Below are positions 7,104 to 64,000 of a DNA stretch of 64,000 nucleotides, in pieces. The notes beneath the pieces are model-generated. The model was not told where the DNA came from, made no database searches, and was given only the letters and a program-made list of their open reading frames with translations. Both the position numbers and the translations under genes were made by a program. Origin of the DNA: Pseudisothecium myosuroides (Eukaryota > Streptophyta > Bryopsida > Hypnales > Lembophyllaceae); NCBI GenBank assembly GCA_951799445.1, contig OX637288.1, positions 12,712,501 through 12,776,500 of the forward strand, in the 5' to 3' direction. Within the stretch, counting starts at the first letter, position 1. Each line of letters opens with the position of its first letter.

Positions 7104-10100
7104 TCATAAAGACTCGGACAAATTCTTGATTCCACTTTGATTGAGATTCAACTTTTTCAAATTTCGTAGGCCTTCAAATGAATCTGGTAGCTTCTCAAGC
7201 TTTTTACAACCCCACAAATTCAACACTTCCAAGAAAATCAACAATCCAAAAGATTCAGGTAAACTTTGGATTCTACTTTGATTGAGATTCAACTTTTCAA
7301 ACTTTGGAGGCCTCCAAATGAATCTGGTAGCTTCTCAAGCTTCTTACAATCCCACAAATTCAACACTTCCAAGAGGCTCAACAATCCAAAAGATTCAGGT
7401 AAATTTTGGATTCCACTTTGATTGAGATCCAACTTTTTCAAATTTTGGAGGCCTCCAAATGAATTTGGCAACTTCTCAAGCTTCTCACAACCCCACAAAT
7501 TCAACGCTTCCAAGAGGCTCAATGTTCCAAAAGATTCAGATAAATTCTTGATTCCACTTCGATTGAGATTCAACTTTTTCAAATTTTGGAGGCCTCCAAA
7601 TGAATCAGGCAACTTCTCAAGCTTTTTACAACCCCACAAATTTAACATTTCCAAGAGGCTCAACAATCCAAAAGATTCGGGTAAATTTTGGATTCCACTT
7701 TGATGGAGATCCAAATTTTTCAAATTTCGCAAGCCTCCAAATGAATTTGGCAACTTCTCAAGCTTTTTACAACCCCACAAATTTAACATTTCCAAGAGGC
7801 TCAACAATCCAAAAGATTCGGGTAAATTTTGGATTCCACTTTGATGGAGATCCAAATTTTTCAAATTTCGCAAGCCTCCAAATGAATTTGGCAACTTCTC
7901 AAGCTTTTTACAACCCCACAAATTTAACATTTCCAAGAGGCTCAACAATCCAAAAGATTCGGGTAAATTTTGGATTCCACTTTGATGGAGATCCAAATTT
8001 TTCAAATTTCGCAAGCCTCCAAATGAATTTGGCAACTTCTCAAGCTTCTCACAACCCCACAAAATCAACTCTTCTAAGAGGCTCAATGTTCCAAAAGATT
8101 CAGATAAATTGTAGATTCTATTTTGATGGAGATTCAACTTTTTCAAATTTCGCAAGCCTCCAAATGAATCTGGTAGCTTCTCAAGCTTCTTATAACCCCA
8201 CAAATTCAACACTTCCAAGAGGCTTAATGTTCCAAAAGATTCAAATAAATTGTGGATTCCACTTTGATGGAGGTCCAAATTTTTCAAGTTTTGCAGGCCT
8301 CCAAATGAATCTGGTAGCTTCTGAAGCTTCTTACAACCCCACAAATTCAACGCTTCTAAGAGGCTCAATGTTCCAAAAGATTTCGATAAATTTTGGATTC
8401 CATTTTGATGGAGATCCAAATTTTTCAAATTTTGGAGGCCTCCAAATGAATCTAGCAACTTCTCAAGCTTCTTACAACCCCACAAATTCAACACTTCCAA
8501 GAGGCTCAACGTTCCAAAAGATTTCGATAAATTTTGGATTCCACTTTGATGGAGATCCAAATTTTTCAAGTTTTACAAGCCTCCAAATGAATCTGGTAGC
8601 TTGTTAAGCATATGACAATAGCTCAGATTCAACACTTCCAACTTCCTCAAGTTTCCAAATGATTCAGGCAATCTCTTCATCAAAGGATCCTTCCAAAACA
8701 ATATCACCAACTCACTATTTTCAAGTGCCTCTGGAAAGTGTCCCAATGATTCAAGGTCCCTTTTGATGTAATCAAGCCAACGCAAACATTTTGGAAGTGA
8801 TGACATTGTAAAGCCACCATTCCATATCAATATACGCAATCCTTTCATGAGAGAAAGGTCAACTTGAAGTCCAAGACTCGGAGGAAGGATCAAAGTTTGA
8901 AGAGAATGTGGTAGTGGCTACACAAAAACATCCCCCCAAAAGGGATTAAAATCAAAAACTTCCTCTTGGATCAAAGTAGGCACATGTAAACTCAAAAAGA
9001 ATATATTGCATGCTTCAATTATTAAAACTAGAGTAAAACTACATGCATGCACAATAATTTTTGGCTCCTCAGACAATATACAAGACTAAACACTATTCCT
9101 ATATTCAATTCAAAATTTTCTCTGTAATACCGCAAAAAATTTATAAAAAAAATACTCTATTAGAATGATTGACCGATTTAAAGTTCAATGGTTACCACAT
9201 ATACCTCATTCTTCTTCAACAATGCCAAGGATTCAGAACCCCATAAGCGTTTGCAAATACCTAAATTTGATCTTTCTTGCTTGGCAATAGCACGGCCCAT
9301 GTCTCGCACGTGGTCATGCATGCCTAAGGTACCAAATTCATCAACTCTAATCAAGGCCTTTTCTATAAGGCTCCGGATGCCCCATGCTACAGACCAACCT
9401 TGAGATCTCCAAATAAGTTTAGCCATCTCCATAGATGCTCCCAACAATGCACATGCAATATCCAAAAACATTTCTTGATGTTGCTCTTGAAGAGCGTCAT
9501 AGCTGATCCGAAGACAATCAAATATCCTCCTCTCATCCATTATAGCGCCACAATTCAACTTCTTCAAAACTTCCTCCCAAATCTCCACATCCTCCTCATC
9601 CCTCAAAAGAGACCCACACACCTTCAACACCAACGGAACTCCACCACATGCCATATTAATATTTCCAACAAGGCCTTCAAATCTTAGAGGTACTTTCGAA
9701 TCACTTCCAAATGTATGACATGCAAAGACACTTTGAGAATTGCGCTCGCTCAATAATTGAACATCATGAGTGTGAATCTCATGATTGTCATGAAATGAAG
9801 TTGACTTCTCAAATACACGTCGATTTCGAGAAGTGACAATGCATATGCTACCTTCTTTTAGCATTTTGCGTGACATTAGATAATCCATCTCATCATCGCC
9901 ACGAACATCATCCAAAACCAAAAGAATGCATTTCTTCGATAACCTTTCCTCAAGGATAACCTTCCCATTAGATTTGTTTGTAATTTTCACATTCTCACAC
10001 AAGGCTTTTAATATATCTTTTTGGACACTTGTCACACCATCTTGATTCACCTTCTCCACCACATCTTCCACATAACACCTTGCATCAAATCTTTTCCCCA

Positions 10101-11109
10101 ATTGGTTGTATAACTCCCTTGCCAAAGTGGACTTCCCAATTCCACCCATTCCCCACAATCCTAACATCAACACTTTCTTCTGATCAAGGGTTTGAATGAG
10201 GTCCTCAACAACACATTTCACGCCTACAATATGATCACCCACATCCAAGGGAAGGGGCTTATTTGCCAATTCAAAGATCATTTCCAACCACCTCCAAGAC
10301 TAAGTCCTTTTCCAACCTACAAACAATTTGAAACAAATTTCATTAACACTGACTACAATGTCAATGTCAAGTTCAACCACAATGCTCTTCATAACACATA
10401 GTGCAAAGGCACATACTTACCTTAAGTCTCCCACTTTGTACTCCCAACCGCCAATCAAGGAAGCTTTTTCCAAATCGGTCCTCCATTCTCCAATCATAGT
10501 CTCACCATACTTCTTTACCAACTTCATAAATTCATCATCTAGTTGACCCTTTTCTGGAAATTTCACTTCCGATGGCTAGACTTTGTAGAAGATTGGAAGA
10601 AGCACCTTCACTGAAGGAGAGTTCAACATTGCATGTAACTCTTTCAAACACCACTCTGACTGGGTAAAATCCTTGGAAAAGATGACTAGGGCTAGGGGTG
10701 TTGTCCAAATAGCATGATCAATGCATTTCCAAGAATCTGGACCTTTACCAATGGATACACAATCCAAAAAAGGATGCAACCCAGCTTGTTTCAGAGCTTC
10801 ATATAAATAGCCCACGAAACCCATCTTGGTGTCAAGACCTCTGTGACTTATGAAAACATCATAATTCCCATATTCATCTACACAACAACCAATGATCAAT
10901 CTTATTGACAAATCAACACATCCAAATTTCATTAGACAATGTTTGCAATTGCATCCAAAGGTGAGCATTATAAAACTATAAACAATGGTACTTCAAAATT
11001 GAATAAGAAAAGAACAGAGTAGTAGTGAGACCAAGGATAAACTAGCTATACCTTCCATTGCACTCAATCTCTTGGTAGGCCTTCCGTCACTCTCCATGCT
11101 GCTTGCCAT
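7104..11109 (-). pseudogene. TIR-NBS-LRR resistance-type gene, disrupted
   Basis: Four exons are readable: a leader at 11109-11052 (start ATG 11109, with a RPTKRLSAME segment), TIR at 10877-10421, NB-ARC at 10316-9205 and LRR from 8917 to about 7104. Seen: TIR core DVFISHRG; NBS P-loop GMGGIGKST, kinase-2 CILLVLDDV, RNBS-B CIVTSRNRR, GLPL CGGVPLVLK and a MHD-like MHDHVRD. The LRR region is at least 10 units of 47 residues, each two LRRs. TNL proteins act as intracellular immune receptors, with TIR NADase signalling after effector sensing. Lesions: TAG at 10576-10578 where the plus-strand paralogue has CAG; a one-base insertion near 10,280 just inside the NBS exon; TAA at 8573-8575 in place of a Gln; and a one-base deletion near 7288. 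A stable product could be at most a TIR-only protein ending at 10576. Confidence 0.9.
7600..8060 (-). repeat. near-identical 141-bp tandem repeats inside the LRR exon
   Basis: About 440 bp, just over three consecutive 141-bp units, appear identical at the DNA level. One unit starts at 7681 and the next at 7822, with identity lost near 8055. Flanking units of the same exon differ at many sites. This indicates recent unequal exchange or gene conversion inside the LRR array. The long antisense open frame over the same bases (7600-8607) is a by-product of the repeat. Confidence 0.85.
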
Positions 11110-32824: not shown

Positions 32825-32979
32825 ATATTCAAGCTTCCCACAGCTTGTGTCTTGAAGCATGGGTGATGAAGTTTGTCTAGTGTAGGGTGCTGTGAAAGCG
32901 ACCCAGCTTTAAAAGCGACCTCTAACACAGAGGTACATTTTGCTTTCTTCAATGTACCCACAGTGAACATTTCAGGAGG

Positions 32980-33065
32980 CAACGACGCTAGCGTGTGAGC
33001 GTGGAGCGGCGAGCTTGTGAGCTGCGAGCGTGGAGCTCGTGAGCCTAGAGCCTGAAAACTATTTT
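32980..33065 (+). repeat. left terminal inverted repeat
   Basis: After CAACGAC comes GCTAGCGTGTGAGCGTGGAG and further GAGC-containing units to about 33,050. It pairs with 50,222-50,281. The conserved core is GCTAGCGTGTGAGC; the inner units have diverged. Confidence 0.7.
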
Positions 33066-33439
33066 TTTAAGCATATTTTTAGCCGAAATTTTTTTTTCAA
33101 ATTTTTTTTTGAAAAAAGGAAAAAACTTTCTATTTATAGTAAATTTTAGGACCTATGCCCGATTTTCCTATTACCGTGGATTTCAGTTTTAAATTTTTTA
33201 TTCTCTAGCAATTATCATTTACTACAAGATAAGACCTTCACACTTCTATGCATAGTTTAGGACTTTCCTCTTCCACTACAATTATATTCTATACACAATT
33301 GAAGATTTTGTATAAAACATAATTTAATCAATTGAGCAAATAATACTCATAAAAACAAATGTGGATTTAGGATAGCATGTACTACAGCTGCTCTAAAGCA
33401 ACTTCGAATACTAAGCTCAGTATAGATAATGCGCCCACT

Positions 33440-33545
33440 AGCATAATTAGGGGCCTCACGGGATTCGAACCCGGGCCATCAGCTTTCAGTCTCATCGACT
33501 CCTCACAAATATACTCCAATCTAAAGGAGTGACCACCCCTTTCAG
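33440..33545 (-). other. tRNA-like B box, possible SINE or tRNA relic
   Basis: The minus strand carries GGGTTCGAATCC at 33,472-33,461 within a GC-richer patch. This fits a tRNA T-arm/B box. No full cloverleaf or clear A box was found, so a tRNA gene is not called. Confidence 0.25.
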
Positions 33546-33840
33546 AAAACAAATTATAAAATGCAGAAGACGTCTTCCAGAAGATTAAAAATAAAATGAA
33601 AGCAATAATAAAAGGAAAAACAAAATTGAAAAATGATGGAAAAAAAAATTCAAAGAAAAAAAATGGATAAGAATTAGAAAGGGAACGTGACAAGAAAGGT
33701 AAAATGGAAATAAAAAAGGATGTCAAAGAAATGGAAGAAATAGAAAAAATCCAATTACATGAATTGATTTCATCGGCATACTTGCATTACAAGATTTGGG
33801 GTCAACGTTGTAATTGTTTAGAGTTCCAATGTTGCCACCT

Positions 33841-36800
33841 CTACTCTGGAACAGTGATGATTCCTGCTCGAAGTAAAAGAAGCTTCAACTCGTTGAAGCT
33901 GTAACTAGGCGCATGAATGAATTGGTCATCATGCACGTCCATCTTGCAAAAATATCGATACAGGTAGTACAAGTGCTTGCAATTCACATATGCTTGACGC
34001 CCTCCAATAGCAGAAACAGACATTTGAACAAAGTCTGGGCATGTGCACGACGGGAACATACCCAATGTAATTCGGTACACATTTTTGTTAGGGTCTGTCC
34101 CGGTCTCTAGTGATACTATTGCACCTAGGCCTGGAAAAGGAAGCAAGGTCACTCCCACAATCTCCCCTTTCACATTTCCAGCACTCTCCCACTTGTTTTG
34201 CTGCTCAATAGTTGGTACATTTGCATTTCTCCGTATGGTTCGGTTGTTCCTAACCGTCGGATACACACTTGCATCTTGTGGCGACGGTTGATCATACAAA
34301 ACACTCTTGAATATGTTTGACATGTTGAAGAGTCGTCGTGGAGACAATGTAGGGCGCTCTTGGAGATGGAAACCTGCATGTTGTAGATAAAGTGTCTCTT
34401 CTCGATTCAGGTTGGTCCCAGTCAAAACAGGCCAAACCTCGGGAACCTCAGGCCTATCAATAACATACTTGCGTTTCGTACCTTTAACACATCGTTCAAT
34501 ATCATTCCAGCAAAACCAAAAGTCTGCCACCACTTCTCGCTTACTCCCGTAATCTTCCTTTCTTCCATGATACGTGGGAGCAGGGGTGCCCTTCCGTCCT
34601 CTTGCAATCTTGGCAGTGCACTTGATGTTGGACGTTCGTTGCTGAGCTTGACATCTGGCGTTTGACTTGTGGCTAATCCTTGCAATGTGCCACTTTGACG
34701 TGTCACAGTCGCTTTCAAATGCAAGAGTAATATGTCGGGATGGTTGTATCTCAGTCAGCTTTCCTTTGTCCGTTGAAGTCTCCAATACAGCCGTAGTTGA
34801 CCTTGTTCGTACACGAGGTTGAGAGAAATTGACTTTGTCAGGTCGATGTGAATCTCCTGCATCGCCAATTGGAACGTCCAGCTTCCTCTTTGTGCTTCCA
34901 AATATCTCTTCACCTTCCAAGTGTGGTATGCGAGTTCCAACACCCTCGGCTCCAGGTAATGTGTTCAGCGCCTCTGCCATTTTCTTTGGGTCTCCGCTTC
35001 GTCGTGCAGCTCTCAATTTCAATTCTCCCTTAGACGGACCAGATCCACTTGTATGTCCTTTCAAGTAAGCATTGTAGTTTGTCATCTGTGACCATGCTCG
35101 GATACTGTCATCGCAAGTGGCGTCAAACAAATTGTTGCCTCTGTTGCCGGACATTTGAAGCCATTTGTTATGAATTGTTTCCGATAAGTTGCACGAAGGC
35201 ATGTCCGCCAGCTCCTCCAAACTCAAATCCTACAAAGCCATTCCAAAAAATCATAATTTCAATAGTTACATTTCATACATCAAAGCTTACAATCCCTATG
35301 AACTAAAAGAACTTAGTTCATATTGATTTCAAATGAAATTCTAAACATTCCAATGCTCCAAACAAAATATATACATTCATGTTCTTCCTCTATAAAGTAA
35401 CATTGCTACTATTACCCAATTTCAATTATAAAATAGAAAACAACAAATTTCTCCTACCATTTTTTTTTTTTTTTTTGGTGGTGCAATTGACCCAAAATGG
35501 GGGTACCGCGAGGGAGTCCAAATACCCCTTTCGGATCCGACAAGGGTATTGGGAGTCCCATGTGGTACCCCCATTTTAGGTCAATTGAACAAAAAAACAG
35601 AAAAAAAAGGCCCGTGGTTATTCCAAATTTGTACTCAAAACTCACGCACGCCTACTTCAATACAATTTATTTATTTTGAAAATTGGTCACTAAAATTGCA
35701 AACTATCAAGTGAAACTTAAGTTCAAATTCAGTGTGCACGTACCATTTGCATGAAGCCTCCCCACTGCCGATACTTAAAATGCCAAAATGCAAGCCAATG
35801 GTCCAAGTGATGAAGTGCATCTTCAGTGGCAGCTCCAGACGAGAACCACCAAGATTGTATTGCAAGGTAACGTGTCTCCGCTTCTTCCATAGTCTTTGCA
35901 TCTTTATATTGTCTGCATAATGTGTTGTGTTGCTGCTGAAATGCTTCTTTGATGTGCTTTTGAGTATGTTTTTGGAGAGAAGTACTCCAATGCAACAAGC
36001 ACGTTCTTTCACGATTCTCCATTTTGTCATTGGCAGAATCTGATCCATACACAATACGAACCGCATTCCAATTGGCCATAGCGCTATCTGCCATGAACCC
36101 CTTGAAATTTGGATGGTCTATTCCGTGTTGTGACATGACACTATTCAAGCACTTCCAAAATTGTACTTGGATCTCTGTATCTTCGGATTGCATGTCGCAT
36201 GTTGAAATGGTCATCACCTTCTTGTACTCTGGATCATACACGTGGCAAGCCATTGTCGTCCAATCTCTCACACGCTTCACGTGGTCAAACATCATCTACG
36301 CATTCTGTAGATTCCCTCCGGGTTGCATGCGCCTCACCAGGTCCACTCCACTTCCAGGTCCTTCGGTTAGCATCTTGAAAACGTACACCTTCTCTTTCCC
36401 TTGGCCAGGGAAGACGCTGTCGTGAATGTATTTGAACCTTGACTCTTTCTTCATGGTCATAATGTTGTCGATAACACCTCCCCGATTGTTTGAGCGAAAT
36501 GAAGATATCACGTTCCGTATATTTGGACTGCTCAAATACTGGTAGCGATCCATGACCTCTTCTAGTTCCTCCTCCTTCAACATTTCTTTTTCTCCCTCTC
36601 CACTGTGAAACAGATAGTTTGTGAGGAAGTCCTTGCTAGCGGAGAGAGCAATTGCAGAGTTGGTGGCCGTCGGGGTCTTGGCCACTTGCTCTGCAATGAG
36701 TCCGCAAATCTTTTCTGCAGAATCTCTATACATGCCCTTTGCCACTGGGTGAGCATGTTCTCCAAAATGAATGGCGGCCCTACTCATTTTTGGATTGTCA

Positions 36801-37903
36801 TTGTAACAATAGTAAATCCTAGCATCACATGTCTTCAAACACGTCGGTTTTGTCTTGCATAGCTTGCAAGCTAGAGTACACTCATTGGGAGGGCTACTTC
36901 CTACTGTGAGAGGGAACAACGTATAACTAGTCCACTCTGTTTCATTGCGTTTTGAAGCCCTCTTCAAGTAATCACATTCTGCATTATCACAAACAAGATG
37001 ACCGGCGCAGTATGACTTACGGAACTTCAGGTTGTCGGAGTTGTGAATGTTTGTCGTCACCAACTTACACCAAGGGTGTCCATCGTAACGCCGGTCCATT
37101 CCCTCCAAGTTACGGGCCGCAGAGGAAGTCGAAGATGCACGACATGGAGGCAGTTCAAAGATGACGTTGCCGTTGAATACTGCTGGAAGATATTGAACAC
37201 GGTGATGCTTCACGGCGTTCAAATCCATTGTGGACAATTCGTTTCTAGAACGATGCATAGCAGACAATCTCCTCAAACACTCCATTATGCTAACTCTATC
37301 AACTGGACTTGGATGCAATGGTGGACGTGACAATAGAGATTGTACAAGACTATTGGACGGGGTACCAGATTCTAAGTTCACTACAATCTTATCATGCGAT
37401 TCAATTTGCATAGAGGTTGACTGGTTAAGAAGTGCCAAATCCGAAGACTCTCCTTCCGACTCGGTTGACAACTCTATAATAGTATCTAACTTTTCAACTT
37501 TCACTGGTCGAAGAATTGTAGGCTCTCGAAGGACAGGAAACACCTCTTGAGGTGAAATAGGAGAGACAGCGTGTGTGATGTAAGGCATATCAACCGTCGA
37601 TGCATCGGACTGCCGACTCAAAATCTCAGTTGACACAACTACCATGGACAGAGGAAGTCCATAAGCTCTATAGTTACCTACTGCAAGATACCAACAGTGA
37701 CCATCTTCTTCCATGGACTTCACTACAGGAACCGACTGCTGCACTTCACCTGATTCCGACTTCCTCTCTTCTTCGACATAAATAGAGGATTCAATAAATC
37801 TGAAGCGGACGTGAAGAAGATGGCTGAGCACTCTTGCACGTCCTCCCTCATCTACCGGAAACACAAGGGGAACCTCATGACCATCTACGCGAATGAAAGC
37901 CAT
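33841..37903 (-). pseudogene. MULE-type transposase with GCM/WRKY-like zinc cluster and SWIM finger
   Basis: Exon 1 runs from ATG 37903 to donor 35744 and exon 2 from 35229 to stop 33841, in phase, about 1,181 codons. Residues 279-385 hold a Cys/His cluster (HPWCK, CAGHLVCDNAECDYLKR, CKLCKTKPTCLKTCD, HFGEHAHPVAKG) of the GCM/WRKY type used for DNA binding by many MULEs. The core carries MMFDHVKRVRDWTTMACHVY and FKGFMADSAMANWNAVRIVY, with the expected acidic residue in MADS. Near residue 1115 a SWIM finger (CTCPDF...NCKHLYY) follows. Codon 536 is TAG at 36,296-36,298, directly before MMFDHVK, in the same frame. It probably replaced a Trp codon. Without readthrough the DDE core and SWIM are lost, so this copy is likely non-autonomous. 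A hairpin sits in the single intron. Confidence 0.85.
35484..35587. repeat. intronic hairpin 1 of the GGGGGTA family
   Basis: 104-bp imperfect foldback with outer arms CAATTGACC/GGTCAATTG, then AAAATGGGGGTACC/GGTACCCCCATTTT, and a central TCGGATCCGA between CCCC and GGG runs. It lies in the transposase intron. Confidence 0.85.
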
Positions 37904-38593
37904 GATACAAACTACGTTGTTCGAGAATACTCCAACTAGAAGAAACTACTTCTTCTTTAGTGTTGTTGGATATTGCTCAATGAATAATACTTCAGCCTAC
38001 GTGATACCTTCGCCCCCATTTGATCAGGATAGCAGGACATAAGCAAGTGGATTAATGTTACAGTCATTAAAGAGTGGAGTTGTCAGTCCACCGTCGAAGC
38101 AAACTATTAATACCTCCACTTTCGAAAACATAAAGTGTATAAGGCGGCTGTGTCAGGCATGTTCCAGAAGCTTGCATTTGAAATTTTGGCGCAACTACTG
38201 CATTTATCAAACATTCTAAAATTTCAGGAGGCAAAAGGAAATGGTCAGTGTCAGAGTGCTATTCAAAGTTTAGGGAATTCTGGCGCACCTACTGCATTTA
38301 TCAAACATTCTAAAAGTTCAGGAGGCAAAAGGAAATGGTTAGTGTCAGAGTGCTATTCAAAGTTTAGGGCGCTGTAACACTACTATTGACGGCGCATTAA
38401 AGAAGTTGCCAGCTATTGTGGCTGTCAATTTCTAATGGCGCCGTCTGTTACCAACCTACTTGAGGGTGATGCATTGTAGGCTAAGTGTTAAGGCCGTTTT
38501 TGCGCTTATAAGTGCTCTCCACTTCTCCAGAGCTTAGTCTTTCTTGCTGCCTTCATAGTCCAATACGTTTTGCTTCTCACCTAGTTTGGATGT
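37904..38593. promoter_or_regulatory. divergent promoter region of the transposon genes
   Basis: This is the only gap between the two start codons. On the plus side a TATA-like CTTATAAGT (38,505-38,513) lies about 85 bp before ATG 38594. A 94-bp unit starting TGGCGCA is duplicated in tandem at 38,187-38,280 and 38,281-38,370. A GGCGC inverted pair lies at about 38,388-38,448. No clear TATA box was found for the minus gene. Confidence 0.5.
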
Positions 38594-41500
38594 GTGTGCT
38601 CTCATTTGATGTTTATAGACGACTGTAGCTCTCCACCTCTTGTTCCAAAGCAGTGCATTAAGGGTAGGAAGCGTATCTCTCTCTACTTCTCCTCTAGGAA
38701 GGCACTTAGGATATCTAGAATGAATCAAAGAAAGAAAGCTGTATCAAAGACAGGTCAATCAACACCTGGGAACTTGAAGAAAGCTCTTCGATTTCAAGGA
38801 GGAAGCAGCGGCGCACCGGAGGATGATCAGTTACAAAGCTTGGACACAATCCAAGAAATATTTGAGGATACCACTACCGTATAAGATCTTTCAGAAGTAG
38901 AAGGAGTGCAACATGTAAGCAGTTCTCTATTCTATTTCTTTACTTTGAATAATTTTGGACTCAACTTGTTGATGTTGTTTCATTGGCAAAATATTTTGAA
39001 ATGTAAGAATCAGTTAATTGTGCTGTGGTATTAGGCATGTTTTCCTTCAGTAGTCATCAGAGGTGGATATTTTTATTACAATACTATGAACTCGTGCAAA
39101 AACTATGCGTGTAGATCCAGAAAGTGGAAAAACGTTAAAGTAAGCAATATTATGGCATAATATGTGTACATTTCATGAGAAGGGTAGGATATGATGCGCT
39201 AGCGAGTTCCGTTCTTCACGTGGTCACAGCATGTGTTTATATTGAACAACACTAGTGAACATGTTTGAGTCAGTGCTGTATACAAAGTACATATGGTAAC
39301 TTGTGAACATGAAACGCCTCATATAGATATAGATACACAGATGTATATGTATGTGGTATATGCATGATTAAGGTATACTAGTGACGTATGAAGGACTCAG
39401 GAATGAGAGGACTTTGCAGAAGTATATTTCAAAACTGAAAATGAAACGAATCTTTGAAAAAATGGTCTAAATAAGAACACATAGAATGAATTCATCTTCT
39501 TGGATCAATATTTCAGAAATCTTTAATTTTGAATTTCCATAATTATGAGGATATAACAAGCTAGCAGCTAATTTCACGTCAATACAATATGCACTATTTT
39601 TACACATAGTTTCCAATGATTTCTTGTCTATTCACTACTTCACAACTCACTATTCATGTTCCAATTAGAAAATCCCAAAATATAAATTAATTTTGAGAGT
39701 CTTCTTAGACCAAGGTGGTCTATGTTATATATATAGTGACTTCAAAATCAATAAAATAAAAAAATATATTTAGTGCTAAATAATAAATTCCTGGAATTTG
39801 ATATTTAAATATCATAAATGCTGGCCGTAATTTCGAAATCACTTTATACAAAATGCTTATAGTGACACACATCAAGTTCATATTCCTGCCCTCCTAGGGC
39901 TCAGACCAGCATCATTTCAAGAGATTTAATAGTAATCAGAACTGTTCTATTTTGAAATTTTGCTCTTGTTTTTGACATGTCTTTCAGGAAAAATATTAAA
40001 GGGGACCAATAACCTAGTGTTGGGATAAATTTAAAATAAATATAAATTATATGGTATGTGTAGAAAGGATTGTACTATACTAAATTTATTATGCTGCTTT
40101 ATTCTATTCTATAAAGTTTTATGCTTTATTTTATTCTATGTAGAATGGACTAGAGGTTATCCTTCAATAGACCACTTTTGCTATTGAATAAATCATGAAT
40201 AATTTTTTTTCTAACGTGAGAGCCAATCATTGTCTTTGGTTTCCTGAAATCACTTTCAAAATTGGAAGGGGACGGATTTTGAGATACCTAGTGTCACAAA
40301 TAGGTACCTACTACTGAAATCTTTGAAAATTCATAACTATTTCAAAAATTCTTCAAAAAATATGAAACCACTTGTGTTACGTTTTGCATCTACTGTTCTT
40401 TCTCTGAAAAATGAGCTATAAATATTTTGGTTCATGTGCATGTATGAAAGAAGCGGATCAGCCCTTAAAGGGTCACGATTTCAGACTACTACCTTAATTC
40501 ATGTGGGAGATGACCAGCAGGTGTATGCGACTAGAATTCCTTGTCTGTTGCCATAACTGTTCAACTTTATTTTCCTACTTTGCGTACAATACTGTTTAGG
40601 AATCTGGGCTGGAGCTATTGTCAGACTAGTACACTGGAGAATAATTCTCCAGAACTACTGGAACTCTCCAATTGATGACTGTAATCTAGGTTTACTTCCT
40701 GAACGATGTGAAAGCTAAATTTGCAGCCATTTCAGGGTGCTGTCAACGCTAGATTAACCTGTACATGCAAGATTGAAGATCGTCATTGTTAGTAAGAAAA
40801 TCGAGGAATTCTTCACCGACCATAGGGCCAAGCCACAGAAATATCATCGCTTTTAACACGTACTTCAAATGCATGCCGAGAACTGGGCAACCGAAAGCAA
40901 GAATTAAATGCAAAATTCTATTTGAGATATTTAAAGGCTTGTCTTACTGCCGAATTAGCGGTACTGATAGAGGAAGTGATGGGCACCCATATCCTGCCAA
41001 AATCAAACAAAATGTCTTGGACGTCCAGGCTTCTCGGAATCTCCAAGCATGACGGTGGCACCGCCGAGCTTCCTTCTTAGCCAGAACTCGGCAAGTGGGC
41101 GCCTCGTCTCCCTGTCAGTGTTCTATTAAATTCCATGGTCTGTATTCCATACTAATCGGTTTGGAGTGCTGTCCCTGTTGATTTCAGTGCAGCAGCAAGC
41201 CGAACCTCAGATCCAGTGCTTCGGAACTACAGAGAATGTCATACGCGATGAAGCCAACAACAAGGAGTCAAGCCAGGGAAAGTGATGAGAAGGCCATGGA
41301 AGACCAGGCACCGGAGGAGCTCGCGTCCACCGAGGTGAAGTCTACACTTTACGTTTTTCGATTTCCTGATTTTGCAGGAGTTATGAGTTCCTGCGTTGAA
41401 ATGGGAGAGCTGATTCTACTGCGTCCGTTACACTAAGATTCATTTGTAATCGTGATTTCATGTAACTAGTTCACAACGAAGTACTCTGGTATAATGGTCT

Positions 41501-44500
41501 ACGTTCGGTCATCACTTTTCAGTTCTCAATTAAGTTGTGGAGTGTCAGGCACAAATAGTTATCATTCAATAATGCCAGTGATCGAGTAGTCGCGCAGTCC
41601 CTCACTCTGCAACTGAGCAGGACATCTGATTGAGATAACAAGTTCAGTATATTGAATTATTTCCGAACATGCAATGTGAATGTTCTGGTACCGCAACAAT
41701 TCCGTTTGCGTAGATTCGATTGCTACGTGAGAGTCGTGAGATTCGTTACTATGTTCGGACTTGTGAGGAGATTTCTCTGCGTGGACTGTAGATTCGTGAG
41801 AATTGAAAACTCTGAAATTTCGGTTCTAGTAACCGTTGTGTTCATTTGTCGTCACTCCTGCAATGCTGAAGGTATGGACAGCCCGTTGCATGGAGATTGG
41901 TGCGCATTCAGATGAAATCATAAATTGTCAAGATGTAGACAATAACCGGGAAGCGTGAAACCCGAGGTAGATTTCGAAGGCTCTGATCTGGCCTTGGCAC
42001 TCTTAGCACGGGAGATTTTCGGTACCGATTAAATTTGGCAGGCAGAGAATCCTTGGAGGTTCATAACCTGCTGAAGTACCAGGACTTGGAATTTGGAGAC
42101 TTCGTATGAAAAATATAGTACTGTTTTCATGCCTCCCGGGCGACCTCGGCAAAACGTTTCTCAACCATCGCAGCAAAAGCAACAGTGATTTGCAGATAGA
42201 ATACAAGAACTGAGCCTTGCTTGAGTTTTTCTTGTGCGATGGTTGAGCCAGATTTAAGATCACAAGACAGCGCTTATCTTTCGGTATTAGCAGTACTCCG
42301 TTGAATTTCTTTGCTTTGATTGAGTCAGAGCTTACCTTCCGATCGATGTGACCATCTCAGGCTGATCAGAGTCAGAGCTTATCTTCCGATCGAGCTTATC
42401 TTCCGACCGATCTTCCGATCGATTGAGTCAGAGCTTATCTTTCGATCTACGTGACAATCTCAGGCTGATGACCCAAAACGGGGGTAGCGCGAGCTACCCC
42501 CCGGACCCCTGTCGGAGCCGACAGGGCTCTTGGAGGTAGCTTGCGCTACTACCGATTTGGGTCATCAACGATTTTAGAATGGAGCTTGTTCCGCAAAGCT
42601 AATGAGAACTGGCAGTTAGGCTATGAACTGGCAGTTAGTTGCCATGTTAAAGAATCCAAATTGTTTGACGCTGCAATCTCTCATGATGACTTTTCTTTTT
42701 GCACTCGCAGCCAGAAATAATGCAGTCTGATGTAAATTTGAAAATATAGCCGATTAAATCTTAAGAATGAAAGCCCAGTTACTGCCCAAGGAACACCCCC
42801 CTCTGAAGATTTGACTTCTCAGTCTTTTAGATAGATCTGTGCCTTACTGCCTCTGCCAAATTATTACTCAACAGCTTCGAAACTTTTAACTGATTGATAA
42901 TTATGTATGGAGAAAGCTTTTCACTGATAGTGCGAGGTCTTTATTTGGTTTATATTTTTTGGAGCTATAATTAAGGCGTAGAGAGCTCCAAATTGTTCAA
43001 AAACAATTAATCTAAGACCTTTACAGAGTAAATTTGATGTTCACCACAGTGCTTAGATAGAATTTGAGTGTTTGAAGGTTCATTCACGAGTAGTGGAGCA
43101 ATATATGACGCCAATGTAGAAAATAGTTGACAAATTTACTTTTCTTGACCGGAAACAGGGGTAGCTCGCGCTACCCCTGTTTCCGGTCAAGAAAGAGGAA
43201 TGACGCAAATAAGATTCCTCTTGCTTTTTATTTTTTTAAACTTTCACTCTTGTGCTGATGTTGGCCAAAGAAAGGATGTAATTTTTATTTGGAAATTGAG
43301 GAATTTACAGTTTGTCTAGAATTGATATTTCATATATGAGTAACAATATAGTTTGAAATTTGAAGATTTTAAATGCATGTGAACCTGATTGATGATTTAG
43401 TTCATGATTTAGAAGAAGAATAATTTCCTTAGAAGTTTAAATGATTTACTTTAAATCATAAGTATTTTTCAAGATGTTTATTTTATTTCAAATATATATT
43501 ATTTTTGAAGGTTTAAATTATGCCACTAAAGTAGATAATTTTCAATGTTATCCCTACCAATATCTTCTATAGTTGAATATTATTTTGAAACCAACCCCTA
43601 GGAATTATAAACCACTCAATTGTAACAAACAAATTGAACAGCATTAAAAAAATAGATGTTTGAAGAGGTACACTTCTAGATAATATTTGAGTGGTTAATA
43701 TCTTCCTTTATACACTTTGCTAATTGTGTTGTGAAAAATTATAGTGTATCATTTTTCAACTAGTGGAGATTTATGTTCATGCATCTAATACTTGAACTTC
43801 TTACTCCAAGTCTTGTCCTCTATGCATTCTTGTTTTTGAATGTTTGCTGGTAGTCTCTTCAAGTGCAATTACTTAACTTTTAGACTGGAATGGAATAGTT
43901 GACATAAACATTTTTTGTTGTGCAGGTGGAAACACATGAACTTCACATAGGGCAGGTCTCATCCACAGATGGAGCTGTTGCAGTCCCGACTACGAATTTG
44001 GCAGGGCCTTCGGAGCCACTATCTCCAAGAGTCACCAACGTGGTGATTTCGAGCGACTCTGTACCAGTCGATGTTCCAGACGTGGTAAGTCTTGGAACTA
44101 GATTGGCCATCATAGATCGATTCTATGATTATGTGGAAGAGCCACACTTGAGTCGATTTAGTGCCCCGAAAATTCGCAAACGGAAACAGCCAGTGTGGTC
44201 ACCTGAGAGTTCTAGCACAGAGTACAGTTCAGAGTGTCATTCTGATGTTTCCGTATGCAGTCCTCAATTGGAGGAGTTCTGTACTTGTGCCTGCAGTGCT
44301 GAAGTGGGCAGGCATGAGATTGTGTTGATTCACTTGAGTTCAGACTCAGATTGTACCATTGATTCAATTTGAAAAAATATGATAATATTTATGTGTTATT
44401 GAATTTGCAAAATTCTTTCACAATCATATATTGCAATGATTAGATTGTTTCACTTTTGTAGCTTATACTAAGTCATCACTACTGTCACGTGAATGACAAT

Positions 44501-47500
44501 TTCGTTTCTTTCTTATGAATTGAGTTAGACTTCATTCAATTGAAAAATTTAATTTCAAGAGTTTCATTGCTATTGCAGATGGATGAGTCTCCGTTGGCGT
44601 TGACCCAAGTAGATCAACCAGTTGTGACGCCAGGGACGGATGAGACTACCCAGCCCGAGATCATTGGCCAAGATGAAGGAGAATTTTCATTAGAAGGCGT
44701 TCCTGATGAAGAAGGGGTGAATGATTTACTGGAAGACGATCTTCGGAGGCTACAGAAGGTGGACACTGTGACAACCATTGCTAGTCTGAGAATGCGGCCT
44801 CATAAATTCTCACGACTGCACATTCCACTGATCCGGTTGGTGGCAATGCCCATGGTGAGGCCAACTCTTTCTTCAGACCTTGTGAAGTTGGAAAATGAAT
44901 TTGCTCACGGTTATCGTGAAGGAGCGGCCGTCTTTTATGTTTCTGTGACAAACAAAGCCGGAGAGAGCTCTGAATTCACTCCGGAAGAGATGAACGGTTG
45001 GAGCCACTTGTGGAAGAAACTCAACAATGAATTTGTGGAGTATGTTGAGTCAATTCCTGAGTTGAAGTTCATGAAGAACTTGAAGTTCTTCGTATGCGAT
45101 GGGAACCATCGCCGCATTGCTTGGATGAATGTGATTGACCGCTTGTACTCTGAGGATCCAAGATTTCACAATGTCGTCGATAGCATTGTATTGGAAACAA
45201 AGGGGAGAGTTGAACTAGTCATGCAAATGATGCATGATATAAACAAGTGAGTGAATTTCATTTATATTACTATTTTCCTTATTTTCTGTATTGTCTGTGT
45301 TTTCAAACTTAATGAGCATTATTCATTTCAGATGTTAAAATATCTTTAATTTTTTATGTAAATTGCAGGTCAACCGAAGACTCTCATGTGAAGACAAACT
45401 TGGTACATACTCTGTACCGAGTCCAGAAGTATGGAGTGACTCCGTATGAACGATTTGATGAAATGCTGAGACCCTCGGAAAAGATACGTTGCAGTGTCCC
45501 AGGTGGGAAGAAACAGTGGTCCTCTATGCCTCAAGGAGTTTTCACGACATTTCTTTTTCGGGTGAGAATCTTATTTTCTGAATGATCATGAATACATGTC
45601 ACTACATTTGATTGTACTGCATTATTGTACGTTTTTTAGGTAAAGAATTTGTAATGCTAATGCTCTTGAATGTTTGCAGCAAGAGATTTCACAAGCGGCG
45701 GATGCTGCAGTGCGTAAGTACAATGAGACAAAAACTGTGGAGGAGAGAACTCCAGAGGGGGTTGCAGAAGCCATGAGAGTTGGTGCTAAGGTGATGGCGG
45801 GCAAGATGTATGCCAAAACGGGAAAGTTATTATCGGTGGCAAGCCCGGTAAACGGACCCGAATTTCTTCCAGAGGTGCTTTTCTTCTCAAATCCATTCTA
45901 ATATTTTTATTTTTATTTTGTTGACATTTCTTTTGAATGTAACCATGATTCTTCGATTGTACAGGTTGAAAAGCACTGGACGGCAAACGAAGTCCCCGAG
46001 ATGACTCTGGAGAAATTGCAAATGGTTGCCACATGCAACACATCTGCATTCCAGAAAACTAAGTTTCTGAAATGGTGGAACTCTTCAATGCCTTCTCGAG
46101 AGGCTAGGCGGTTTCCACCGAAGCCAGTTTCTGAAGATAAACTTAATTCCTTCCTCAATAAGTGCGTTTGGTGGGCAGGGGTAAATTTTTGACTATATCT
46201 TTCATAAATTTTGATGCATGCAAATGTTTACTTAATGAATGTATAAAATTTGAAATTCTTCCTCGTCATTTGCTTCTAATTCTGTTAGTAATTTATGATT
46301 GCGACTTATTTTCAGATTCAGGATGCTTCGGTTGACTACTTTGCAAAGGTAGAGAAGGACGACAACCTCAAAATCAACATGGCATCCCCACTTGAACCTG
46401 AGCTTCTTACAGAGTATATTGAGGGATGGAGGAGGAAGATATGGGATCACGCGTTTAACCCAACTCTAAAGGGTCAACATTCATTCAAGAAGTTTGATGC
46501 ATTCTTGAATTATGATGGAGCAGATCAGGCCGTTCGAAGAGTTATTTTCCGGTACTTGTTTCAACTTTTTCAATCACAATTTCATTCATTGTAATTTACA
46601 GTTAACGCGATTGAAAGTTGTAAAAAAAAGTCGAAAAAATTGAAAAGTTTGAAGCCATAACCAAAAGTGGGGGTACCGGTAGGTACCTCTAGTACCCTTG
46701 TCGGGTCCGACAAGGGTATTTGAGGTACCTACCAGTACCCCCACTTTTGGTTATGGCTTCAAACTTTTCAATGTTTTAATTTTTTTTGTATGATTGTATT
46801 TGTTTTTTGTTAATTTTGATCCATTTATTAAAGTTGCATTCGGTATTTTTTTGGTCATTATGAAATTGTATTAACTAATCAATAAAATGCTGAATTGTTT
46901 GTGAAATATTTTTTTGGTTGCAATGTACTCACTAAATTTTCATGGATCATTGTGGGCCGCTGAATCTAAAGTGGGGGTAACGTGAGGTATTTCAAATACC
47001 CCTTCTGGATCAAAAAGGGATATTTTGAGTACCTCACGATACTCTTACTTTTGGTTTATGCTAGTAATGTTAAAGAGATTTTACTACTTTATTTTGACAA
47101 TTGTTTTTCTAATGTGAAAATTCAGTTTGATATTTTACAAATGTATGCAAATGATGTTTAGCATGTAGCAATGGACTAATACGGAAAGCAATGCTGGGTT
47201 TTTTGTGCCTTCTATGTGTATTTTCAATGTAGACACTAATGAATTTTTCTATATTGTGTTGCAGTTACTTCAAGCTTGAGCTCGTGCCGAAGAACGCCAT
47301 TGCTAAAGAGGATCTCCCTCCATTCCTAACCACATGGCTGGATCGAAGTGCTGAAGAGTGCATGTATACCGGACTCCAACTTCGGTCGTTCACAACAGCA
47401 CATCTTTCCGGTGGAGGGTGGTACCTTGAATGTCCAACAACATTCACCCATCCGTCCGAGACAGCTTTTCGGCAAACATTTGAGGGACGTGGGGTCATTG

Positions 47501-49470
47501 ACTTGAATATTCCCGAGTTTGCTGATCTTACTGACGCACAGAAGAAGAGGGCCATTGCAAAGAGGACGGTGGCTGACAAGAAGAAAGAAGACAAAGTACA
47601 AGAGGCTCGAGAAAACAAAGAAAAGAGAGAATCAGAGCGGTTGGTGAAGATGGCAGAGAAAGCAAAAGAGGCGGAGAAGGAGAAGAAGGAAAAGGGCAAA
47701 GGTAAAAAGAAGGTCAATGATGCGAAACAAGTTGTAGCATCTTCCACGGTGGACCAAGGCTCCCAGATGCAAGGCGAGTCTGGAGGTGGAATGAAGAGGA
47801 AAGCGGTCCTTCAAGAGCTCACGGAGGATATGGTTACACAAGGTACTCAAGTAATATGCCTTGGTGATGATGACGACGTCACCTCCGAGGAGTTGATTCT
47901 AAACGTGTCCATTATGGAAGTGCAAGAAAACGAAACTGAAGACGCGCCAAATTGCTACACCGAGGTGATGGACTTCTTGAAAAAGGTAAGCATGTGCTAA
48001 TTTAAAATTAGAAATGCATAATATTATGGAATGATGTGTTTATTTCTTTAGTAATGGATGACTAACTGGAAAACTGTGTGGTTATAGATGGCGGTAGGGA
48101 AGGCTCGCACTTATGATGGTGTAGTCAACAAATGGCCAGGAGTGGACCTCATTCTGTTTGACTGCCCAGAGAATTTGCCCGTTCCAGAAATACCTTTTCC
48201 GATGCACGCGGTACCCGCGTGGAACTCGGACGTGGAGTGCGTGGTCCTGAATAATGTGTTTTCCTTTGCTGAGAAGCACTTACAGGATCATGGATGTTTG
48301 ATTGTTTTTCATTCACGTTGTGGCGCTTCGAAGAGCAACATTGCAGGACTCTGTGCGGTGTACCCATCATTGGTGGAGAAAGAAGACTGGTTGGGCATGA
48401 ATCGGATGCACCTAACCTCACCCTTGGACAAGACGGCGACGGTACGACTTTTGCAAATCTTCAAGACTTGTTTGAAGTTTGGCATTTTTTTATGTATTAT
48501 TTTTTCTGATTGATGATTTCTCCATCGCTTGCAGACATTGAAGTTCGGAATCACCGTCTTGGTGAAGGATATTACCATGAAAGGAAAAGCAAGGTTCCAA
48601 TACAAACGGTCACAGGCCATGGCAAAGGCAAAAGTGGATCTTCGAAAAGACGACATATACATGAACTACATCAACGAGGACACTCAATTGATGAATACGG
48701 CAACTTTCATGCCATGGCGGGGGGCTCGCGAAAAAGACGCTAGGTTCTTGCAATTCTTCATAGAAGGAACAACTGAAGAAGGAGACTTGGTTTTGGATTG
48801 CACAGCTTCTACAGGTCAGTTTTGAATTCAATGATTGTGCATTCAATTTTGTAATTCATTTTATGCAAAAATGAACTAATGAATTGCATATTGTTTATTG
48901 CAGGGGCATCCATTACAGCATGTCGCGGCACTAGACGCCACATAGTGGCTTTGGAGGCGGACAAGGACATTTTTAACGCTATCCTTCTACCCATGAAGAA
49001 GATCATTCCGGCTACAGTGGCAGCTGAAGTCACACAATTGCCACCGCCGGTTGAGTCTTCACAAGATCCGGATGCCGTGACCGTGGTGCCCAGGAAGTTT
49101 GTTCGCATAGATAGAGCTAGTAAGTAAGTTTAAAAATTTCTAATTTGTTTTTGTGCAGGCTACTTTTTATATTGTATGAGTCTGACATTGATTTATTTGT
49201 ATTTTCAGACAAGAAGAAGTGATGCATGCACAGACATTGACGAAGAAACGAAGACTTCTTTTGAGTCCTAAGAAGTCTTTTGATCTTCCCGTGTATGCTG
49301 AGCAGATGGCATCGGCGTTTGAGGAGTTTGGATGCTCTAAACGAAAATCCCGTAAACCTAGATACGCTCTAAATGTTCTAGAGTTTATAGATAGGTCAGC
49401 ATCGGAGGGTGGAGAGACTTCTGAGTCATCTACGACTCAGGATTCTGCGACTGAGTCCACCGCCACTTAG
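38594..49470 (+). CDS. ParB-like domain / DNA N4-N6 methyltransferase-like fusion protein
   Basis: Splice sites and phases give 13 coding exons: 38594-38878, 41188-41334, 43926-44084, 44579-45246, 45369-45561, 45680-45874, 45965-46180, 46316-46551, 47265-47985, 48088-48441, 48535-48814, 48904-49123 and 49209-49470, about 1,311 residues. The first two exons are the least certain. The N-terminus is acidic and disordered. Around residue 371 the motif FVCDGNHRRIAW fits the ParB/Srx-like nuclease fold. A Lys/Glu-rich coiled coil (exon 47265) links to a C-terminal domain. There a motif-IV-like LILFDCPENLP (about 961) precedes motif-I-like LVLDCTASTGGA (about 1143) and VALEAD, the order of beta-class N4/N6 DNA methyltransferases. 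Canonical (D/S)PP(Y/F) is DCPE here, so activity is uncertain. Substrate is likely DNA, in the nucleus. All frames are open, unlike the partner transposase. An intron-retained 3' end at 44,372 is possible. Confidence 0.8.
38879..41187. other. first intron of the methyltransferase gene with repeat debris
   Basis: AT-rich. Around 40,325-40,400 it holds AAAATTCATAACTA/AAAAATATGAAACCACTTG-type sequence that recurs outside the transposon at about 50,325, 51,030 and 54,300 (reverse). The 88-codon frame at 40,786-41,052 has no domain but is GC-richer and might be an alternative exon. Confidence 0.35.
42466..42567. repeat. intronic hairpin 2 of the GGGGGTA family
   Basis: 102-bp foldback: TGATGACCCAAAACGGGGGT pairs with ACCGATTTGGGTCATCA. 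The centre is CTGTCGGAGCCGACAG. It lies in the 2.6-kb intron between exons 41,334 and 43,926. Confidence 0.85.
43141..43194. repeat. intronic hairpin 3, perfect 25-bp arms
   Basis: TTTCTTGACCGGAAACAGGG and GTAGC are mirrored exactly around a four-base TCGC loop. It shares AGGGGTAGC with hairpin 2 but lacks the long inner part. Same intron as hairpin 2. Confidence 0.9.
46639..46772. repeat. intronic hairpin 4 of the GGGGGTA family
   Basis: 134-bp, nearly perfect foldback: ATTGAAAAGTTTGAAGCCAT outermost, then ACCAAAAGTGGGGGTACC, with central TGTCGGGTCCGACA. It lies in the intron 46,552-47,264. Confidence 0.9.
46966..47058. repeat. intronic hairpin 5 of the GGGGGTA family
   Basis: Decayed foldback: TAAAGTGGGGGTAACGTGAG against CTCACGATACTCTTACTTT, with CAAATACCCC and AGGGATATTTTG inside. 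About 200 bp from hairpin 4 in the same intron, and the most diverged member. Confidence 0.75.
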
Positions 49471-50221
49471 ACTCAAGAGATTGACATATCTCTTGAGTCA
49501 AACTATTATGTGTTGATTTTTATTATGATTGGATTTGTGTGTTTTATGGCTACATTTTGGGTGTCATTTCTTCCTCTATGCAATTTTGGATTTTTTTTTT
49601 AAAGATCATTTTTTTTTGTGTTTATAATTTGATTACTATTCATTATTATAGGTTTTTCATTATGACCCTAAACCCTTAACAGAAACCTTGTTTCTAGAGT
49701 TTTTGATTTACACATAGTCCTTTCTTTTTAAGAATTTCAAAAGATCTTTATGTATGTAAAAGTTCTTTTTGTTAATTTGTCACATTTTCAGATTTAGGGA
49801 TTTTTTATACTACTGAGCAAATGAATTTAATGATTTTCAACTATATCTTTTATATCCTCTACATTCGTACAAGTAGGCAAGTGTGAATCTACTTTTAAAA
49901 TGTCAAAGTGGTTTTCAATTCATTTTTCTGGTTGAATCTCAATACCATACACTCCTTCCAATTTTCAGCCTTATTTTTGGTTATTTTAATCTTGTTTTCC
50001 TATGTCTACAACATCCTAAATGCTCTCACCCAGTTTTTGTGGAACAAATTCTTGAACATCAAATTCTAGTGATGTCCAATTAGTTGTTGCAATTAATGTT
50101 ATTCAAATCTGGTTGTAAGTGACTAAAATTTTGGGAAAAATGAACTGAAATTTTTGATATATTAAGTTATGTACTTCCACGGTCATAGGACCATCATCCA
50201 TTTTTTCCAAAAAAAAATTCC
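49471..50221. other. 3' flank of the methyltransferase gene inside the transposon
   Basis: AT-rich with T runs, no gene. It leads into the right terminal repeat and probably contains the 3' UTR and polyadenylation signals. Confidence 0.4.
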
Positions 50222-50281
50222 CGCTCACAGGCTCACGGGCTTACAGGCTCACGCTCACAGGCTCACACGCTAGCAACCCTG
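50222..50281 (-). repeat. right terminal inverted repeat
   Basis: Plus strand CGCTCACAGGCTCACGGGCT and following AGGCTCAC units end in CACACGCTAGCAACCCTG. On the complement this begins CAGGGTTGCTAGCGTGTGAG, matching the left end core. Confidence 0.7.
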
Positions 50282-50291
50282 TTTCAGGAGG

Positions 50292-62253: not shown

Positions 62254-64000
62254 ATGACAAGCGATATGGAGAGTGACATTGGTGACACAAGTGATGCAAA
62301 GAGATTGTGTGCAAGTGAGGCAAGGCCTAGCAAGAGATTGTGTGAAAGTGACAATAGGCCTGGCAAGAGATTGTGTGCAATTGAAGGTGTGGTTATACCC
62401 TTGGTCTTATTAGTAACTTGTTCTTTTTTTATACAATTCTTAAGTATCAACCTTTATGGTTTTCAAATGCTCACCTTTGGATGCGGTTGCAATTATTATT
62501 TTCTTGATGACATTTAGACGCGTTGATTTGTCAATAAGATTGATCATTGGTTGTATGTAGATGAATATGGAGACTATGATGTTTTCATTAGTCATAGAGG
62601 CCCTGACACCAAGACGGGTTTTGTGGGCTATTTATACGATGCCTTGAAAAGAGATGGATTGCATCCCTTTCTCGATTGTAAATCCATTGGTGAAGGCCAA
62701 GATTCTTGGAAATGCATTGATCATGCTATCAAGACAACACCCCTAGCCCTAGTCATCTTTTCAGAGAGTTTTGCACAATCAGAGTGGTGTTTGAAAGAAT
62801 TGCATGCAATGTTGGAGTGTCCTTCAATAAAGGTGCTACCCATCTTCTACAAAGTGCAGCCATGGGAAGTGAGGTATCCAGATGAAGGTGTGTTAGCTAT
62901 TGGATTTGCAAAGTTGACCAAGAATCATGATAAGCCTCTCCTAGAAGAATGGAGGGGAGATATGGAAAGAGCTTCAAAATTGAATGGTTGGGAGCACAAT
63001 GTAGGAGACAAGAGGTAAATATGTGGGTATGCACTATTTGTTATGAAGTGTTTGTGGTTGACATTCAATTTTGACATTGTATTTGGTGGTAATGCAATTT
63101 TGTTGATTTTGTTTGTAGGCTGGAAGCTGATTTGGTGCAGGAGGTGGTTGGAAAGATTTGTGAATTGGCAAATAAGCCCCTTCCCTTGGATGTGGGTGAT
63201 CACATTGTGGGTGTGAACCAAGTTGCTGAGAAACTCATTCAAACCGTTGATGAGAAGAAAGTGTTGATGTTGGGATTGTGGGGAATGGGTGGAATTGGGA
63301 AGTCCACTTTATCAAGGGAGTTATACAACCAATTGGGGAGAAGATTTGGTGCAAGGTGTTATGTGGAAGATGTGGCAGAGAAGGTGAATAAAGATGGTAT
63401 GACGAGTGTCCAAAATCATATTTTGAAGGACTTGTGTGAGAATGAGAAAATTACAAACAAATCTAGTGGGAAGGTTACCCTTGAGGAAAGGCTATCTAAG
63501 AAATCCATTCTCTTAGTTTTGGATGATGTTCGTAATGATGATGAGATGGATTATCTAGTGTCGTGCAAAATGTTGAAGGAAGGCAGCATGTGCATTGTCA
63601 CTTCTCGAAATCGACGTGTATTTGAGAAGTCAAATTCTTTTCACCTCAATGAGATTCACACTCATGATGTTCAATTATTGAGCCAACAAGATTCTCAAAG
63701 TGTCTTTGCATGTTATGCATTTGGAGGTGATTTGAAAGTGAAACCAAGATTTGAAGGTCTTGTTGGAAATGTTAGTAAGGCATGCGGTGGAGTTCCTTTG
63801 GTGTTGAAGGTGTGCGGGTCTCTTTTGAGGGATGAGGATGATGTTGAGATTTGGAAGGAAGTTTTGAAGAAGTTGAATTGTGGCACTATCGTAAATGAGG
63901 AGCAGATACTTAAATGTCTTCGTATTAGCTATGACTCTCTTCAAGAAGAATATAGAGAAATGTTTTTGGATGTTGCATGTGCATTGTCGGGAGCATCTGT
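62254..64000 (+). CDS. TIR-NBS-LRR resistance-type protein, truncated by window end
   Basis: Exons: 62254-62386 (from ATG; it may have an upstream leader exon since CAG precedes it), 62561-63014 (TIR) and 63119 onward (NB-ARC), all in phase. The leader encodes three KRLC units (AKRLCASEARPSKRLCESDN...). TIR: DVFISHRGPDTKTGF and LDCKSIGEGQDSWKCID. NBS: GMGGIGKST P-loop, SILLVLDDV, CIVTSRNRR, CGGVPLVLK. No stop or frameshift is seen up to the edge, unlike the mirrored pseudogene at 7.1-11.1 kb. The leader, TIR and NBS exons have the same borders as that copy. Role: intracellular immune receptor, by family. MHD and LRR parts lie outside the window. Confidence 0.9.

Follow-up and report, generated by a model that had tools for sequence, protein, structure and literature searches.

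The stretch of DNA analysed here (the window) comprises 64,000 nucleotides of contig C2 in the 388-Mb assembly of the moss Pseudisothecium myosuroides. Positions 32980–50281 of the window form one DNA transposon of 17,302 bp, with related ends and a flanking 10-bp target-site duplication (TTTCAGGAGG at 32970–32979 and again at 50282–50291, both read from the sequence). The element carries two divergent genes, a transposase gene on the minus strand (gene 1) and, on the plus strand, a gene (gene 2) whose predicted product resembles N6/N4 DNA methyltransferases at its C-terminus and may be related to ParB and DndB at its N-terminus. The termini, 5'-CAACGACGCTAGCG...CGCTAGCAACCCTG-3', are inverted repeats related to each other with GTGAGC-like units; GCTAGCGTGTGAGC is common to the 5' and 3' ends, and the match is imperfect beyond it. 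We delimited a 5' terminal repeat at 32980–33060 (plus strand, GTGAGC-type sub-repeats, CAACGACGCTAGCGTGTGAGC outermost) and a 3' terminal repeat at 50218–50281 (minus strand, CAGGGTTGCTAGCGTGTGAGCC outermost in reverse complement), the inner limit of each being our choice.

The extent of the whole element was defined by the ends and duplications of its copies. A copy on contig C3 (L041 and L042) has identical end bases, is flanked by its own 10-bp duplication (TTTCCTAAAC), and is 98.7% identical to the window DNA over 33009–43177 and 99.1% identical over 43158–50252. A diverged third copy, at 54.8 Mb on contig C1 (L045 and L046), is bounded by TTATTTGTTG duplications; the target duplication was 10 bp long, with a sequence differing per locus, in all three copies checked at both ends. 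Because further copies stop at the same bases between their own duplications, the ends and the duplication are not a product of chance, and sequence comparison demonstrates a mobile element. An initial annotation of the window had proposed related terminal repeats and a 10-bp flanking duplication, and the C3 and C1 copies bear this out. The duplication length lies within the 8–11 bp given for Mutator-like elements (MULEs) in the accessible text of PMC6446971, as expected of a MULE. Genome-wide, the 3' end pattern (≤1 mismatch) had 147 matches vs 1 for a reversed control, and the 5' end pattern (≤2 mismatches) had 421 vs 0. Among the end matches listed, three other loci had end pairs of 17,309–17,433 bp, and element lengths were 17.3–17.4 kb (four, including the window), ~18.2 kb (two) or otherwise 7–42 kb. 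Four elements of 0.38–0.44 kb with both family ends (C2:1479166, C2:2397010, C3:43584949 and C1:4806833) are probably small derivatives resembling miniature inverted-repeat transposable elements, moved in trans.

Gene 1 was read as two exons on the minus strand. Exon 1 (35744–37903, 720 codons) is predicted to encode a Ubl/PB1-like N-terminus, a WRKY/GCM-like zinc region and, according to the structural model, an IS256-like catalytic region, and exon 2 (33841–35229, splice sites read by eye) adds 462 aa and the stop. The predicted structure has an IS256/MULE-type RNase H catalytic fold, with its best structural match in the IS256 family (ISCth4, PDB 6XGX/6XGW), and on this model the element is a MULE/IS256-type transposon. 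The modelled fold resembles IS256 (ISCth4) and Mutator transposases, yet Pfam MULE (PF10551) had no match in a 62-row transposase alignment (window copy and 61 relatives). Transposase_mut (PF00872) matched 1 of the 62 rows, at E 0.034, and PF10551 matched 41 places in the same genome, the window element not among them. A SWIM-like CxC...CxH finger lies in exon 2 (33970–34077, minus strand) and scored 12.7 bits against Pfam SWIM, under the cut-off of 19.6. The initially annotated SWIM-finger MULE transposase is retained in its modelled fold and its finger pattern, but not at the level of Pfam profiles. In the window copy, an in-frame TAG (36296–36298, minus strand) aligns with a nearly invariant W in relatives; this stop disables the transposase, so any movement of the window copy would be in trans.

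Gene 2 was modelled with 12 coding exons at 41236–49470 (plus strand), separated by GT-AG introns and encoding 1200 aa, which demonstrates a splicing-compatible gene at the sequence level. It had been annotated as a divergent gene of 13 exons; it is indeed divergent and spliced-looking, but 12 coding exons were modelled, and since the reading frame is open 5' of the modelled start codon, a 13th exon is possible. Exon 1, with the modelled start (41236–41334), and exon 2 (43926–44084) precede exon 3 (44579–45246), which encodes the putative ParB/DndB-like core with VCDGNHRR at 45092–45115. Exons 4 to 7 (45369–45561, 45680–45874, 45965–46180 and 46316–46551) are followed by exon 8 (47265–47985), encoding a middle region and a Lys/Glu-rich linker. 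The motif IV position falls in exon 9 (48088–48441; FDCPENLP at 48157–48180), motif I starts in exon 10 (48535–48814; LDCTASTG from 48793), exon 11 (48904–49123) encodes ALEADKD (motif II) after the remainder of motif I, and exon 12 (49209–49470) contains the stop. Gaps of ~6 kb in copy c28 (L039/L040) and ~12 kb in copy c11 (C11:12.5 Mb) break gene 2, indicating that other sequence was inserted into those copies.

The C-terminal domain of gene 2 matched Pfam N6_N4_Mtase in 5/5 members (best E 6.6e-5), with bit scores below the Pfam cut-off of 26.7 (13.9 for the whole protein, 18.4 for member 1 and 20.5 for the outside relative P0015), and matched PHROG DNA methyltransferases in 5/5 members (best 4.5e-7). 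The latter matches are significant, and profile similarity thus points to an N6/N4-methyltransferase-like domain. The ParB-like assignment of the N-terminal part is weaker and draws on a DGNHR motif (DGxHR type) together with marginal profile matches to DndB (E 0.0048, 2/5 members) and DGQHR (E 0.095, 3/5). Unrelated families matched single gene 2 members at comparable E-values (0.014–0.23), and this part had no ParBc profile match and no PDB sequence match in the five members scanned. For the annotated ParB–methyltransferase fusion, then, the methyltransferase half is upheld by Pfam and PHROGs, but the ParB half comes down to the motif and the marginal DndB and DGQHR matches. Among the four profiles suggested for checking, N6_N4_Mtase was found in every member, ParBc and MULE gave no match and SWIM stayed below its cut-off.

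Motif IV of beta-class N6/N4 methyltransferases is [DNS]PP[YFW], and DCPEN of gene 2 aligns to DPPYN of DpnA. Across 39 loci scanned, motif IV was readable in 22 (window included), and its fourth residue was E, D or K in every case, with no aromatic Y, F or W (0/22). The versions were FDCPENLP (nine loci), FDCPKNLP (four) and FDCPDNLP (four), with FDCLENLP, FDCSKNLS, FNCPENLP, IKCSENLP and FDCQENLP at one locus each. Fourteen of 23 outside relatives cover motif IV, all 14 with D-C/V/I-P/Q-E/K (aromatic in 0/14), and the distant loci L062 and L063 have DIPD and DVPE, respectively. Motif I of gene 2 is D-C-x-A-S/A-T-G, with the middle Gly substituted in the gene models; the corresponding sequence in P0015 is DLTAGTG. 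As judged from these alignments, the catalytic site is conserved and non-canonical. Loss of the motif IV aromatic usually means no amino-methylation, as in METTL14.

These residues bear on the possibility that gene 2 encodes an active self-methylating enzyme that would place N6-methyladenine (6mA) or N4-methylcytosine (4mC) on the element, marking its ends for the transposase or blocking silencing. Compatible with such activity are the methyltransferase-like domain, whose motif I/II residues are conserved under purifying selection, and the more canonical motif I of P0015. Moreover, a self-methylation role is suggested for a ParB+methyltransferase gene of Ectocarpus in the available part of PMC12477816. 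Nonetheless, we consider self-methylation rather unlikely for the moss gene, as motif IV reads D-C-P-E/D/K at most loci, with D-V/I-P-E/D among distant relatives, the aromatic is missing from every readable locus and outside relative as well as from L062 and L063, and motif I in the gene models has another residue in place of its middle Gly. The self-modification proposed in the initial annotation is accordingly doubtful (no aromatic in 22/22 loci and 14/14 outside relatives), and the gene 2 protein may lack DNA methylation activity altogether. With another residue in place of the base-stacking aromatic at every readable motif IV, we prefer a binding role for gene 2.

Gene 2 and the transposase were found together repeatedly across the genome. 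The first gene 2 search scored 39 of 1475 candidates and the transposase search 62 of 792; 141 gene 2 matches were grouped by hand into 28 loci, for some of which the position was extrapolated from an exon further along, and only divergent transposases were taken into the pairing count. A divergent transposase lay ≤40 kb from gene 2 at 16 of the 28 loci listed (≤14 kb at 14 of these), and 16 of the 62 transposases listed were paired with a listed gene 2 copy. At least 21 of the 28 gene 2 copies had a 3' end within 25 kb, based on 53 of the 147 3' end places. Eight of the 28 loci are on contig C11 (16.9 of 388 Mb), which may be a sex-linked chromosome or one rich in repeats.

Of the 46 listed transposases that had no gene 2 copy on the list, 16 had a 3' end downstream and 30 had none listed. 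We predicted gene 2 at 12 further places from the position of a transposase or 3' end, fetching only 1.5–2.5 kb at each, and it was present at 11 (L053, L054–L061 [8/8], L062 and L063), always on the strand opposite the transposase (11/11). Nine of the 16 transposases with a downstream 3' end were tested and gene 2 was present at 9/9; for three tested from the other 30, it was present at 2/3. The twelfth place, L064, had no gene 2 and contained a tandem-repeat-like stretch. Gene 2 adjoins a ~60% identical transposase at L062 and a ~54% identical one at L063. The initial annotation hung partly on whether any other copy keeps both genes between the same ends, and others do; sequence comparison thereby demonstrates a repeated pairing. 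Near copy c27 there is an old, broken gene 2 fragment with a 3' end after it, which indicates that the family has long been present in this genome. This nearby fragment is also what could be cited for two unrelated elements being nested or adjacent by chance, a negligible prospect given that several loci share the order, orientation and similar spacing of the two genes within the same ends; the copies refute it.

The ratio of nonsynonymous to synonymous substitution rates (dN/dS) for the whole of gene 2 between subfamilies was 0.13–0.21 where countable (six pairs were saturated and several had dS >2), for example 0.18 for the window vs c18 and 0.21 for c26 vs c27. Values were 0.07–0.10 for the ParB-like region (4 countable of 19 pairs), 0.15–0.37 for the methyltransferase domain and 0.10–0.18 for transposase exon 1. 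Recent pairs were relaxed, with gene 2 values of 0.66 (window–c02) and 0.53 (c26–c24) and a transposase value of 0.51 (window–c02). These substitution ratios demonstrate purifying selection on both genes between subfamilies, and the pattern fits genes that are required for long-term spread and decay post-insertion. In between-subfamily pairs, dS of gene 2 exceeded dS of the transposase, which could reflect exchange between elements.

MULEs often capture genes, and a role for gene 2 in its element is something we infer, leaving some room for gene 2 as cargo, i.e., a host or foreign gene captured Pack-MULE style that does not serve the transposon. We regard this as improbable: gene 2 lies beside transposases ranging from 97–100% down to ~54% identity to the query of the transposase search, it was divergent from the transposase at every predicted place where it was found, and its low dN/dS and pairing across subfamilies are unlike Pack-MULE capture. 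At least as improbable is that gene 2 serves the host, perhaps as an anti-virus or chromatin protein, and was spread by the transposon. DndB-like and phage-type methyltransferase domains take part in modifying DNA in prokaryotes and in controlling that process, and the domain kinds of gene 2 would suit such a benefit, but its copies decay as transposons do, with stops and truncations.

On balance, we lean towards a long-lived two-gene MULE/IS256-type transposon in which gene 2 is an accessory protein, likelier an S-adenosylmethionine-fold DNA-binding factor or one with altered chemistry than an ordinary 6mA/4mC writer. Gene 1 would provide the transposase, which a single stop disables in the window copy. 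Gene 2 would provide a 1200-aa accessory protein combining an N-terminal DGNHR (ParB/DndB-superfamily-like) region with a C-terminal N6/N4-group methyltransferase-like domain. This protein may serve its own element by binding the element's DNA at the repeat-rich ends or the intergenic region and, once bound, could aid escape from silencing or formation of the transposition complex. More tentatively, a land-plant MULE lineage may have kept, across very deep divergence, a ParB-like and methyltransferase-fold protein whose catalytic site changed to a conserved D-x-P-E/D, so that a DNA methyltransferase of prokaryotic type became an element-specific DNA-binding or new-chemistry factor encoded by the transposon.

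The divergent intergenic region between both genes (37904–41235) holds a 94-bp tandem repeat (38182–38369) that is retained in the C3 copy. A 13-mer, TTTCAGGAGGCAA, occurs in this repeat at 38222 and at the left element junction (32970), probably by coincidence. Five short foldback repeats lie in introns of both genes (35463–35608, 42466–42567, 43141–43194, 46621–46790 and 46963–47056), with arms of 25–84 nt that are 74–100% complementary and a GGGGTA-type core; they probably belong to another small foldback family whose members inserted into the element. On either side of the transposon are pieces of resistance genes of the Toll/interleukin-1 receptor (TIR), nucleotide-binding, leucine-rich repeat (LRR) type (7289–10992 and 62527–63018, open reading frames identified by eye). 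Among them is an LRR stretch in which many repeats are nearly identical, and the TIR reading frame at 62527–63018 matches plant nucleotide-binding LRR proteins.

Similar gene combinations have been described in algae. According to the available part of PMC12477816, Sola1-1_Ec32 of the brown alga Ectocarpus is a 21.5-kb DNA transposon in which a gene opposite the transposase encodes a 1104-aa ParB-like and N4/N6 DNA methyltransferase protein. The same text refers to green and red algal transposons with similar ParB+methyltransferase proteins (Iyer et al. 2011; Petroll et al. 2025) and to giant EnSpm elements with accessory genes in red algae. As far as that text goes, the moss element is like Sola1-1_Ec32 in that a single gene opposite the transposase joins a ParB-like N-terminus (marginal here) to a methyltransferase C-terminus, and, compared by description, unlike it in its carrier, which is of MULE/IS256 type in a plant vs the Sola1 superfamily in a brown alga. 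The green and red algal cases share a similar domain pairing within transposons, a likeness of description without sequence comparison.

Among MULEs, VANDAL and Hiun elements encode accessory VANC proteins that act against silencing of the element encoding them, according to the portions available of PMC5735166 and PMC10398659. These are, by description, MULE-type elements with an accessory protein, like the moss element, and from the same portions we think that VANC of the Arabidopsis VANDAL MULEs may be the closest functional parallel to gene 2. We know of no methyltransferase domain in VANC. DNA-modifying enzymes are also carried by fungal DNA transposons encoding TET/JBP dioxygenases (PMC12730594) and by retrotransposons with cytosine methyltransferases (PMC5890265), discussed in the accessible sections of these papers as counter-silencing or arms-race genes. 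Those enzymes are dioxygenases or C5-cytosine methyltransferases, whereas in gene 2 a ParB-like part would be joined to a domain of N6/N4 type. Searches of an open-access library listed no ParB+methyltransferase gene in a MULE or land plant. The initial annotation, which knew of no described plant transposon of this kind, put the novelty too high: algal ParB+methyltransferase transposon genes are in print. What is new relative to the literature is the MULE/IS256-type carrier, the plant host, the deep co-conservation and the altered motif IV.

A class of transposon helper newly described in algae thereby gains a plant member and a MULE/IS256-type carrier, and the many copies in one genome make selection and gene pairing measurable. 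The altered motif IV makes the self-methylation proposal directly testable. If the gene 2 protein binds its element, this would offer a direct test of how a transposon evades plant silencing by means of a part of prokaryotic kind. Should gene 2 prove to be a binding factor with an altered site, then, together with the Sola1 and red algal elements, unrelated transposon superfamilies would share the same kind of helper.

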